A stretch of 39,327 nt of DNA, taken from an uncultured bacterium. Its GTDB lineage: Bacteria > Patescibacteriota > Minisyncoccia > Phycocordibacterales > GWA1-40-21. This document shows, one piece after another, positions 3,313 to 26,747 of this stretch. The DNA lies in NCBI GenBank assembly GCA_903822075.1, contig CAIJNK010000003.1, positions 1 to 39,327 on the forward strand, in the 5' to 3' direction. The notes beneath the pieces are model-generated. The model searched no databases, was not told the origin of the DNA, and saw nothing but the letters and a program-made list of their open reading frames with translations. The translations under genes were made by a program, and so were the position numbers. Within the stretch, counting starts at the first letter, position 1; each line of letters starts with the position of its first letter.

Positions 3313-3768
3313 CTAATTAAAAAGACTTTCCACTACTTCTTTGACGTCAGTACCATCAGCCATTCCTTTGAATTCTTTCATCAGGGCACCCATAAATTTA
3401 CCCAGACCGGCTTTGTCGGTCACATTGAGCTCGGTTTTTTTGGCCAAGGCAATTTTTTTTATTTCCTCCTTGCTCATCATTTTCGGCAGGAAAGTTTCCA
3501 GGATTTTCAATTCGGCATTTTCGGTTTCCACCAAGTCCATCCGGTTACCTTTGGTAAATTGGTCAATGGAATCTTTTCTTTGTTTGACGGCTCGCTTGAT
3601 AACAGCAATCGCTTCGTCATCAGTGAGTTCGGATTGAGGCGTCTTGCCTTTGGCTACGAGCTCATTGGTAAAGCTGGTTACCAAACCGCGGAGCACGGTC
3701 AGCCGGACCGCATCATGGGCAATCATCGCTCCTTTTATACTATCGCGCATTTCTTGTTGTATGGACAT
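3313..3768 (-). CDS. yqeY: GatB/YqeY domain protein
   Basis: MSIQQEMRDSIKGAMIAHDAVRLTVLRGLVTSFTNELVAKGKTP...DDEAIAVIKRAVKQRKDSIDQF family pattern. Confidence 0.9.
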   Translation of the reverse strand: MSIQQEMRDSIKGAMIAHDAVRLTVLRGLVTSFTNELVAKGKTPQSELTDDEAIAVIKRAVKQRKDSIDQFTKGNRMDLVETENAELKILETFLPKMMSKEEIKKIALAKKTELNVTDKAGLGKFMGALMKEFKGMADGTDVKEVVESLFN

Positions 3769-3789
3769 GTTATTTTGTATTTAAGACAA

Positions 3790-3869
3790 TGAAGATTGTT
3801 TGATTTTAAAATGTCTGGTTGAGCCGTTCTATGGGCGACCCGAGGACTTTTAAAATTAAATAATCTTTA
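3790..3869 (-). ncRNA. Conserved leader hairpin element, copy A (upstream of yqeY)
   Basis: 66-bp core (3797-3862) shared with copies at 7016-7107 and 21608-21703; inner stem ATTTTAAAAGTC/GACaTTTTAAAAT; internal loop ATTTA/CAAAC; outer stem AAGATT/AATCTT. Confidence 0.75.
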
Positions 3870-3931
3870 TCTTCTGGTTATTAACTCTATGATACTATCA
3901 CATTTTGGCTTTAATTGGTATAATGTGACAT

Positions 3932-6991: not shown

Positions 6992-7015
6992 GCTTTAGTA
7001 ATTATTAATTAAATA

Positions 7016-7107
7016 TGAAAATCATAGATATTTAATTTTAAAAGTCCTCGGGTCGCCCACAGAAAGGCTCAACCAGACATTTTAAAATCAAACATTTATA
7101 ATTTTCA
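7016..7107 (+). ncRNA. Conserved leader hairpin element, copy B (upstream of pyrG)
   Basis: Same core as copies A and C; outer stem TGAAAAT-C-ATAGAT / ATTTAT-A-ATTTTCA; ends 8 nt before ATG. Confidence 0.8.
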
Positions 7108-7115
7108 AATACAAA

Positions 7116-8759
7116 ATGAAAAATCATAAATACATTTTCGTGACGGGTGGGGTGATGTCAGGGGTGGGCAAGGGAATCGCGGCGTCATCCATTGGCGCTA
7201 TTTTTAAGGCTAGGGGTTTTGCGGTGACGATGATAAAGATTGATCCTTATGTGAACGTGGATGCCGGAACTATGAACCCCACGGAGCATGGCGAAGTATT
7301 CGTATTGGAGGATGGTGATGAGTGTGATCAGGATATGGGAAATTATGAAAGATTTTTGAATATTTCCTTGACTCGGACCAATTATATGACCACCGGCCGG
7401 GTGTATCAGGAGGTGATTCGCAAGGAAAGAAATTTGGAATATAAAGGGAAATGCGTTTCCGTTATACCAGACATAACAGACGAAGTAATCAGGCGGATTG
7501 AATTAGCTTCAGATAAGGCCGACTCGGACATTACTATTATTGAAGTGGGGGGGACGATTGGTGAATATCAAAATATGCTTTTCTTGGAGGCAGCTCGTAT
7601 TATGAAGGGCAGGGCACATGACGATGTGGCATTTGTAATGGTGAGTTATTTACCAATTCCATCAAAAGTTGGCGAGATGAAAACCAAGCCAACCCAATTT
7701 GCCTCGAGCACCCTAAATAGTGCCGGTATTCAGACGGATGTGATTATTGCCAGGGCGTCTGTTCCGATTGATCAGAAACGTAAGGACAAGATTGCCATGT
7801 ATTGTAATATTCGACCCGAAGGCGTGATTTCCGCACCTGATATTGAAAGCATATATGATGTACCGCTGAATTTTGAAAAAGATAATATCAGCAGTGTTTT
7901 GGGTAGCGTTTTAAAATTGGATATGACCGATAAACCGCTTAATTTTGGCCCATGGCAGGCTTTTGTGAAGAAATCTAAGGCGGTGAAAAAAGAAGTGAAT
8001 ATTGCCGTCGTGGGAAAGTATTTTAGCTCCGGGGATTTTATCCTGTCCGATGTGTATATCACTGTTTTGGAAGCCTTAAAATATTCCGCATATAAATTGG
8101 ATCATAAAGTCAAACTGCATTATCTCGGCTCGCAACAGTTTGAGAAAGACCCGAAGAAGTTGAAAGATTTGAAAAAGTATGACGGTATTTTGGTGCCGGG
8201 TGGTTTTGGCTCCACCGGCATTGAAGGGATTATTTCTGTCATCAAATATGCCAGAGAGAATAAAATCCCATATTTTGGCTTATGTTACGGCATGCAACTT
8301 TTGGTGATTGAATTTGCCCGGAATGTTTTGAAATTGAAAGATGCCAATACGGCAGAGATAGACAAGAACTCTAAAAACTTGGTGATAGATATTATGCCGG
8401 ATCAAAAACAAAAATTAGCGGAAGGAAATTATGGTGGCAGTATGCGCTTGGGAGCCTATGAAGCAGTTCTGGGACGTGGAACCATTGCTCATGATGCTTA
8501 TAAGCAAGATGCCATTCAGGAAAGACATCGTCACCGTTATGAAGTGAGTCCGGATTATATTCAAAAACTGACGGATGCCGGTCTGGTCTTTTCCGGTAAG
8601 TCACCGGACGGCACTTTGATGGAAATCGCCGAGCTCCCTAAAAAGGTTCATCCATTTTTCCTTGGTACCCAGTTTCATCCAGAGTTTCTGGCTCGTCCGC
8701 TCGTTCCACACCCGCTATTTACTGCTTTCATTAAAGCCTCAATTAAAAATATGAAATAA
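7116..8759 (+). CDS. pyrG: CTP synthase
   Basis: YIFVTGGVMSGVGKGIAASSIG, GTIGEYQ and C-terminal glutaminase GLCYGMQ / GTQFHPE. Confidence 0.97.
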   Translation: MKNHKYIFVTGGVMSGVGKGIAASSIGAIFKARGFAVTMIKIDPYVNVDAGTMNPTEHGEVFVLEDGDECDQDMGNYERFLNISLTRTNYMTTGRVYQEVIRKERNLEYKGKCVSVIPDITDEVIRRIELASDKADSDITIIEVGGTIGEYQNMLFLEAARIMKGRAHDDVAFVMVSYLPIPSKVGEMKTKPTQFASSTLNSAGIQTDVIIARASVPIDQKRKDKIAMYCNIRPEGVISAPDIESIYDVPLNFEKDNISSVLGSVLKLDMTDKPLNFGPWQAFVKKSKAVKKEVNIAVVGKYFSSGDFILSDVYITVLEALKYSAYKLDHKVKLHYLGSQQFEKDPKKLKDLKKYDGILVPGGFGSTGIEGIISVIKYARENKIPYFGLCYGMQLLVIEFARNVLKLKDANTAEIDKNSKNLVIDIMPDQKQKLAEGNYGGSMRLGAYEAVLGRGTIAHDAYKQDAIQERHRHRYEVSPDYIQKLTDAGLVFSGKSPDGTLMEIAELPKKVHPFFLGTQFHPEFLARPLVPHPLFTAFIKASIKNMK

Positions 8760-18988: not shown

Positions 18989-20002
18989 ATGTCATTCTTT
19001 GCCAAGAAAATCGGGATTGATTTAGGTACAGCTAATACTTTAGTGTTTCTACCGGGCAAAGGTGTGGTCCTTTTTGAGCCATCTGTGGTGGCTGTATCCG
19101 AGCAGGATAATCGAATTTTAGCCGTGGGCATTGAAGCTAAAAAAATGCTTGGGAAAACTCCTGACAGCATCATTGCTTATCGGCCCATGAAAGACGGTGT
19201 GATTGCTGATTACCGCGTGACAGAAGCGATGTTGCGCTATTTCATCGATAAAGCACTAGGTAAATGGAATTTGTTCAAACCGGAAGTGATGGTTTCTGTG
19301 CCGGCCGGCGTAACCTCCACCGAACGCCGTGCGGTGATTGAAGCGGCCATGAAAGCCGGGGCTAAAAATGCTTATGTGGTGAAGGAACCAATTTTGGCCG
19401 CCATTGGCGCGGGGATTCCGATTCAGGAACCGATGGGGCATATGGTGGTGGATATTGGCGGCGGAACGACGGATGTGGCCGTGATTTCTTTGGGTGGTAT
19501 TGTGTCATCCACTTCCGTGAAATGCGCCGGCAATAAAATCGATTATGCGATTGCCGATTATATCAAGAAAACTTTTAACTTGGCGATTGGGGATAAAACC
19601 GCGGAAGATATAAAGATCACCGTGGGTTCCGCCGTGCCGATGGAAGAGGAGCTCACGATGACCATCAAAGGCCGAGATTTTTTGTCCGGTTTGCCCAGAA
19701 CGGCTGAAATAAAAACCAATGAGATTGTAAAAGCTATTGGCAAAGAACTTCGCGATATGGTGAAAGCCATCAAGGATGTGCTCCAGGAAACGCCACCCGA
19801 GCTCGCGGCGGATATCATTGATCAAGGTATCATTATGACCGGCGGTTCGTCTCAACTTCGAAACCTTGCCGAGCTTGTTTTTCGTCGAACTGGTGTGAAG
19901 GCAGTGGTCGCCAAGGATCCTATGTATTGCGTGGCCAAAGGCACCGGTATTGCTCTTGAACACCTTGATGTCTACAAAAAAGCGGTGATTGCGAAGAGGT
20001 AG
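18989..20002 (+). CDS. mreB: Rod shape-determining protein MreB, paralog 1
   Basis: KIGIDLGTANTLVFLPGKGVVLFEPSVVA, VVDIGGGTTDVAVISLGGIV, GGSSQLRNLAE. Confidence 0.94.
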   Translation: MSFFAKKIGIDLGTANTLVFLPGKGVVLFEPSVVAVSEQDNRILAVGIEAKKMLGKTPDSIIAYRPMKDGVIADYRVTEAMLRYFIDKALGKWNLFKPEVMVSVPAGVTSTERRAVIEAAMKAGAKNAYVVKEPILAAIGAGIPIQEPMGHMVVDIGGGTTDVAVISLGGIVSSTSVKCAGNKIDYAIADYIKKTFNLAIGDKTAEDIKITVGSAVPMEEELTMTIKGRDFLSGLPRTAEIKTNEIVKAIGKELRDMVKAIKDVLQETPPELAADIIDQGIIMTGGSSQLRNLAELVFRRTGVKAVVAKDPMYCVAKGTGIALEHLDVYKKAVIAKR

Positions 20003-20047
20003 GGTTTGTGATATATTTTTTGTAGACAAAATCAAGGAGATAATACA

Positions 20048-21587: not shown

Positions 21588-21607
21588 TAGGTATATTAGT
21601 TTATTAA

Positions 21608-21703
21608 TTTGAAAAAAGTAAATATTTAATTTTAAAAGTCCTCGGGTCGCCCACAGAACGGCTCAACCAGACATTTTAAAATCAAACACTTTCTTTTTTC
21701 TAA
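21608..21703 (+). ncRNA. Conserved leader hairpin element, copy C (upstream of frr)
   Basis: Same core as A and B; outer stem TTTGAAAAAAGTAAAT / ACTTTCTTTTTTCTAA (13 of 16 paired); ends 11 nt before ATG. Confidence 0.8.
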
Positions 21704-21714
21704 GCAACAAACAT

Positions 21715-22266
21715 ATGCAATACGACTTCACAAAATTAAAGAATAAGGTTAAGGAGACTGAAGAATGGATGAAAAAGGAATACACCGGAATAAGGACCGG
21801 TATGGCTTCTCCACAGCTTTTAGACAGCGTAGTGGTGGAAAGTTATGGCCAACGAATGCCTTTGAATCAAGTGGGTTCTGTGAGTATTGCGGACCCAAAA
21901 TCTTTACTGGTTACCCCATGGGATGCGTCACAGGTAAAGGCGGTAGAAAAAGCTATCACGGTGGCAAACCTCGGTGTATCTTTAAAGACAGATGAAAAAG
22001 GTGTACGGGTATTTTTTCCTGAATTGACCAGCGAACGCCGAGAAATGCTTATGAAAGTGGCCAAGGAGAAGATGGAACAAGCCAAAATCACTTTGCGAAC
22101 AGCTAGAGATGAAGCGGTCAAAGATATTGAGACCAAAGAAAAAGAAGGTGGTATGGGTGAGGATGATAAGTTTCGTTTCAAAGCCGAGATGCAAAAACTG
22201 GTGGATAGTGGTAATAAAACCTTGGAAGAAATTTTTGTCAAGAAAGAAAAAGAGATAACCGCTTAA
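21715..22266 (+). CDS. frr: Ribosome recycling factor
   Basis: EYTGIRTGMASPQLLDSVVVESYGQRMPLNQVGSVSIADPKSLLVTPWD. Confidence 0.97.
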   Translation: MQYDFTKLKNKVKETEEWMKKEYTGIRTGMASPQLLDSVVVESYGQRMPLNQVGSVSIADPKSLLVTPWDASQVKAVEKAITVANLGVSLKTDEKGVRVFFPELTSERREMLMKVAKEKMEQAKITLRTARDEAVKDIETKEKEGGMGEDDKFRFKAEMQKLVDSGNKTLEEIFVKKEKEITA

Positions 22267-26480: not shown

Positions 26481-26747
26481 ATGCTAAAACATATAATTTT
26501 AGATGCTTTACTTTTTATTTCCGTAATTATTTGCCCATGGTGGGTGACAGTAATTCTAGCCGTTGGTATTTTGTATCATCTTAGGTTTTTTAATGAGCTC
26601 GTTCTTTTTGGTCTAATGATGGATATTTTGTATGGTAACTTTACTTCCAATCTCCATCCTTTGGATTATAAATTCACTATATTTTTTATTGTTCTCCTCC
26701 TATCTTCCTTTTTAATAAAAAAGAGATTGAAGTTCTACTCCAAATAA
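26481..26747 (+). CDS. MreD-like short membrane protein
   Basis: Hydrophobic 88-aa ORF 2 nt after mreC; assignment by position and topology. Confidence 0.5.
   Translation: MLKHIILDALLFISVIICPWWVTVILAVGILYHLRFFNELVLFGLMMDILYGNFTSNLHPLDYKFTIFFIVLLLSSFLIKKRLKFYSK

Follow-up and report, generated by a model that had tools for sequence, protein, structure and literature searches.

A probably mobile palindromic repeat of Paceibacteria lies upstream of yqeY, pyrG and frr and recurs within protein genes

Three structured elements precede yqeY, pyrG and frr in the stretch of DNA analysed here, a contig stretch of 39,327 nt referred to as the window. Very probably, each is one copy of a mobile palindromic DNA repeat found in Paceibacteria that falls into the same broad class as the Rickettsia palindromic elements and MITEs. 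The initial annotation had described them as leader elements and had named a MITE-like palindrome as the alternative; it is this alternative that was favoured by sites empty in relatives, by mixed orientation and by in-frame copies in coding sequence. What is new here is a modular design, in which several core families each occur on unrelated, perfectly re-paired arms.

The core GTCCTCGGGTCGCCCAYAGAAMGGCTCAACCAGAC was found three times in a scan of the window, where shuffled sequences lead to an expectation of 0, and each time it lay within a 66-nt common unit (Table 1). The near-identical triplet noticed earlier was reproduced in its coordinates, its 66-nt unit and its loop variants. RNAfold recovered both the inner stem and the self-pairing outer stems that had been claimed, with z = -4.8, -5.6, and -3.4 for the three copies, and an inverted-repeat search of the window placed them among its top four. 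The element is about 90-115 bp long. Its core is an asymmetric hairpin with the minimal motif GTCCTCGG...CCAGAC, and an apical stem-loop is usual and variable; the outer arms vary by locus, and in nearly every case the two arms of a copy pair. The distances from arm to ATG stood at 8 nt for pyrG and 11 nt for frr; that for yqeY is about 21-23 nt, depending on the chosen arm end. The names of pyrG and frr were borne out by NCBIfam profiles; yqeY gave no NCBIfam match at 1e-10 and was named by eye alone. Two further palindromes were seen in the window. An mreB-like gene has its stop codon within a perfect 13-bp inverted repeat, TGTCTACAAAAAA/TTTTTTGTAGACA, whose loop measures 34 nt (19969-20028), and 31-nt arms with 81% complementarity (26660-26744) lie within the ORF 26481-26747, which is mreD-like by position.

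Table 1. Element copies in the window and the genes downstream of them
Feature	Position	Strand	Details
Copy A, yqeY leader	3784..3875	-	Core 3813-3847; unit 3797-3862 plus own outer arms; inverted repeat I4; absent in G001
Copy B, pyrG leader	7013..7110	+	Core 7044-7078; unit 7029-7094 plus own outer arms; inverted repeat I2; absent in G001
Copy C, frr leader	21599..21712	+	Core 21638-21672; unit 21623-21688 plus own outer arms; inverted repeat I1
yqeY, downstream of copy A; ordinary host gene	3313..3768	-	Named by eye
pyrG (CTP synthase), downstream of copy B	7116..8759	+	NCBIfam
frr (ribosome recycling factor), downstream of copy C	21715..22266	+	NCBIfam

The description of the element as three-copy holds within the window and not for the whole genome. 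In the genome of the window, G000 (819 kb, 22 contigs), 7 core copies were found at up to 2 mismatches to the query, and the covariance model R1 recovered 9. Elsewhere in G000, copies precede eno, nusA, a zinc-finger gene, and a tRNA-binding-domain gene, and another is inside the terminator hairpin 3' of a KH-domain gene, itself 3' of rpsP. A broken copy (L101, G000:C4:6165-6219), its 3' half interrupted by extra sequence, is located at the 3' end of an rplI-like gene facing a convergent rpmA-like gene (eno, nusA, rpsP and the KH, rplI-like and rpmA-like genes were named by eye). With the same model, the congener G001 yielded 11 copies, and G004 and G006, which represent a second genus of the same family, yielded 25 and 34; single copies were scattered across Paceibacteria; the covariance-model search of the full genome and its relatives, as proposed earlier, has brought out dozens of sites. 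The exact core was present in Nomurabacteria, Zambryskibacteria, and further Paceibacteria. Carriers made up 16 of the 387 genomes sampled from the class, ten of them in a single family, f87, and in a phylum-wide sample at a stricter threshold the matches were confined to the same order. No exact core was found in the viral contigs searched.

Occupied and empty sites were compared between relatives. Six of the eight G000 sites comparable with G001 are empty in the latter, which has no element at yqeY, eno, the KH-gene terminator, pyrG, the zinc-finger gene, or the tRNA-binding-domain gene; a further congener, G002, was left out for most sites because of its fragmented assembly. At the remaining two, frr and nusA, the element is present in both species. 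The frr copy of G001 occupies the same position as copy C, with re-paired arms and apical stem; outside the apical loop, 47 nt are the same in both species, though the flanks differ. In the nusA copy of G001, the apical stem is gone and the inner arms are changed. At the KH-gene terminator, G001 has the hairpin AAAACCACCC-AAATTTGA-GGGTGGTTTTTT without the core, and G000 has the same stem with the core inside. In the second genus, G004 is empty at no fewer than six of the sites occupied in G006 (n = 3, 16, 17, 18, 19, and 20); at two more (n = 9 and 11) there was no copy in the mapped G004 segment, where the flanks are not both cleanly aligned. No target-site duplication was evident at the G006/G004 sites, whose flanks are highly diverged.

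These comparisons also bear on how the element enters a site. The earlier suggestion that it inserts into hairpins does not hold as a general rule, because the empty sister sites at alr, eno, yqeY, and the tRNA-binding-domain gene carry no hairpin. Insertion solely into pre-existing hairpins was rejected; it fits the KH-gene terminator and the common arms of G004, and is contradicted by alr and eno. Inverted duplication of the flank at insertion found no support: compared with their empty sites, alr, eno, and the tRNA-binding-domain gene have gained both arms, and neither arm is the old flank. Elsewhere, a palindrome CCCCTCCCCAGTTTTA..TAAAACTGGGGAGGGG was seen nested in another repeat (L156:9776), and its empty version (L155:14650) suggests a CTCG target duplication.

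The orientation of the copies was examined with respect to the neighbouring genes. In G000, seven of the nine copies are in 5' leaders and all seven are sense, which counts against the mobile-repeat reading. Outside G000, the orientation is mixed and includes antisense copies, and six G004 copies lie between convergent genes. Mixed orientation, copies between convergent genes, and empty sites are together unlike what would be expected of a dedicated leader. The sense placement in a leader, first described for the three window copies, is not uniform in the relatives, where copies also lie in frame within coding sequence.

In-frame copies occur in ten or more protein families, including tgt, uvrC, uvrD/pcrA, polA, alr, mnmA, leuS, cca, def, and pheT, the pheT copy being antisense, and a further coding copy is in an FAD-linked oxidase gene. 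The families of the host proteins were assigned by profile matches, several of which are split in two at the insert. The clearest case is alr, where a linker of 21-27 nt in relatives measures 105 nt in G001; the added 84 bp correspond to 28 codons and include both arms. In uvrC, tgt, and polA, the same loops hold other palindromes with other cores in other f87 species. Such permissive loops, each with a different in-frame palindrome, were seen in uvrC (L229, L231, L237, L238, L242, and L233), tgt (L220), and polA (L262 and L266), and f87 contains further core families, for example CGCCTTCGCCCTCGGAGACATAGGACAGGGAACCCACGGCTCC in uvrC and polA of G330. An excised intron or a bypassed element was rejected for the coding inserts; they preserve the frame and are free of stops, and the simplest reading is that they are translated. 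The Paceibacteria inserts lengthen loops in many essential proteins by about 20-40 codons, and they extend protein-coding palindromes, known mainly from Rickettsia, to the streamlined genomes of Paceibacteria.

The claim that the diverged outer arms of each copy re-pair with their own partner was borne out by permutation. For 14 copies of G000 and G001, the mean self-pairing energy was -11.6 kcal/mol compared to -3.8 kcal/mol for cross pairing, and 0 of 20,000 permutations reached the observed sum. For 17 coding inserts of the studied and sister core families, the values were -23.3 and -6.7 kcal/mol, again with 0 of 20,000 permutations. Between the uvrC inserts of G315 and G338, whose core, CTTTACCCCAGAGGGG.CCTACACG, places them in a sister family distinct from the element of the window, 8 of 27 pairs had changed on both sides and were still paired, and one was broken, around a core common to both. 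Between the frr copies of G000 and G001, there were 3 double changes and 2 broken pairs among 30. Since double-sided covariation is found inside the coding sequence of uvrC, its presence in these palindromes does not prove that the RNA has a function. On the transcript strand, G-U pairs numbered 5 and A-C mismatches 16 in coding copies, and 30 and 35 in co-directional copies, related copies being counted repeatedly in both sets. Selection on RNA should favour G-U; that G-U is not commoner than A-C therefore argues against it, as a supporting and not a decisive point. Covariation had been taken as a sign of selection on RNA or cruciform structure: the covariation is real, but its like in coding uvrC and the lack of G-U enrichment weaken the case for RNA. 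The complementarity of the arms is probably kept at the DNA level, and not by a hairpin that regulates the downstream genes. For RNA discovery this is a warning, because double-sided covariation at orthologous loci arises in coding sequence and cannot alone prove a functional RNA.

Cores and arms were found in differing combinations. G001 contains 53 perfect inverted repeats of element-like shape, compared to 8 once the sequence is shuffled. Among them are several core families, each with arms that differ from copy to copy. In G004, the identical arms GAATTACGAAA..TTTCGTAATTC surround both the studied core and unrelated cores. The same arms with different cores, and the same core with different arms, mean that arms and cores are separable, so that how perfect stems arise and are maintained can be tested directly. 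A separate palindrome family of G001 with the core TCCGTTTAACGGAGTACCTAATCACTCC was observed at L277:9584-9637, L060:14013-14082, and L026:3453-3526; one copy of this family lies upstream of the zinc-finger gene, where G000 has the studied element.

Template switching is a documented cause of perfect stems and multi-base compensatory changes (PMC8794818) and has been proposed for coding palindromes (PMC6649704). On balance, we regard it as the most likely cause of the kept arm complementarity: switching at a stalled hairpin (quasi-palindrome correction) would produce double-sided changes without selection on RNA. Counting against it, several copies of the G000 genus have the same or almost the same 66-nt unit with its internal loop ATTTA/CAAAC kept, and switching should have erased this loop. 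The likeness of the units, together with the conservation at frr, suggests either selection on the unit or a recent spread. Cores may also have been exchanged between hairpins by an event of this kind; we hold this to be somewhat less probable than not. It would account for one and the same core being found on unrelated arms. More tentatively still, and with considerable doubt, these palindromes could be a Paceibacteria superfamily of modular elements whose cores pass between hairpins through template switching during replication, with no transposase dedicated to the task. A stem would stall synthesis, the nascent strand would copy the apical part of another hairpin and then return, and cores would thereby disperse as each locus kept its own re-paired arms. 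If this were true, strong "compensatory" covariation would be a by-product of DNA replication. Alternative routes for the cores would be an unknown recombinase, or transposition followed by fast change of the arms. By whichever route, insertion is probably nearly neutral where it is tolerated, so that copies would persist at permissive sequence, of which the yqeY, pyrG, and frr leaders would be examples.

Alternatively, the element could be a cis-acting, structured part of the 5' UTR with a protein, a ligand, or the ribosome as its binding partner; it would then control yqeY, pyrG, frr, eno, nusA, and others as a regulon, and might replace the Shine-Dalgarno motif. The sense leaders of G000, the presence at frr and nusA in both species, the strongly conserved unit with its internal loop, and the strong fold are all in keeping with this reading. 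We nevertheless consider it very unlikely, given the six sites empty in G001, the mixed orientation with copies between convergent genes, the in-frame coding copies with covariation of their own, and the absence of G-U tolerance. Rfam, searched at gathering and relaxed thresholds, returned only chance miRNA matches, in agreement with the earlier impression that the element belongs to no known family. The Shine-Dalgarno motif is rare throughout the window, being present in 2 and missing in 20 of its 22 confident genes, so its lack at the three leaders is no evidence; moreover, yqeY and eno of G001 have neither the element nor the motif, and the proposed replacement of the motif by the element is not upheld. 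It is less improbable, though still unlikely, that the mobile palindrome was co-opted in this genus at some leaders (frr and nusA), where the hairpin might stabilise the mRNA from its 5' end or modulate translation. Such use would accord with the retention of these two sites in two species while others turn over, with the uniform sense orientation in G000 leaders, and with the frr copy, unchanged over 47 nt outside the apical loop and bearing 3 double-sided substitutions in its arms. However, the G001 nusA copy lacks the apical stem and has altered inner arms, and two retained sites of eight are compatible with chance.

It also counts against the mobile-repeat reading that the searches for Y1 and reverse transcriptase genes yielded no transposase linked to the element, and that no target duplication could be tied to it. 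That the copies are REP-like elements with a Y1 (RAYT) transposase as their mover is suggested by Y1-type genes of about 220-275 aa in many carriers and by the imperfect palindromes of bacterial REPs. But the carriers G000, G094, and G097 have no Y1 match, the non-carriers G003, G005, G007, G010, and G011 have one, no element copy adjoins the Y1 loci examined, and the Y1 gene of G004 is flanked by a hairpin of its own, GGACATCGGATGTCC, which together make this mover very unlikely. This RAYT-like gene and its hairpin (L154/L188, G004:C5:11090-11320) lie in an intergenic gap where G006 has the studied element. Reverse transcriptase was rejected as the mover, because its genes occur in carriers and non-carriers alike and are missing from the carriers G097, G338, G346, and G368.

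In the open-access papers searched on palindromes, MITEs, and REP/RAYT in Patescibacteria, Nomurabacteria, and the Candidate Phyla Radiation, no account of the element was found; an earlier one may exist in the subscription literature. Perfect inverted repeats with co-changing arms are also seen in the coding palindromes of Nematomorpha mitochondria (PMC6649704) and in template-switch hairpins (PMC8794818), which differ in having no conserved mobile core. REP/BIME elements with RAYT (PMC3733652) are likewise imperfect palindromes with conserved asymmetry and many copies; however, the studied element is longer, has no RAYT association, and shows no common GTAG/CGTC tag in the alignment, CTCGTC occurring in one subset only. 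With prokaryotic MITEs (PMC10969869), it has in common that they are short non-coding inverted-repeat elements with many copies and insertion polymorphism. Its terminal arms are shared between copies in G004 and G006 and locus-specific in G000 and G001; no target duplication was seen at its diverged flanks, and no autonomous partner was found among the Y1 and reverse transcriptase genes. The nearest precedents found, the Rickettsia palindromic elements (Ogata 2000 and 2002, summarised in PMC10969869 and PMC6649704), are palindromic repeats of about 100-150 bp with several families per genome, found in frame in many unrelated conserved proteins and also between genes, general features in which the studied element resembles them. 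In contrast to the Rickettsia elements, all matches of the studied element are in Paceibacteria, which belong to another phylum; its outer arms pair within each copy while bearing no relation to those of other copies, and cores of different kinds are carried on the same arms.
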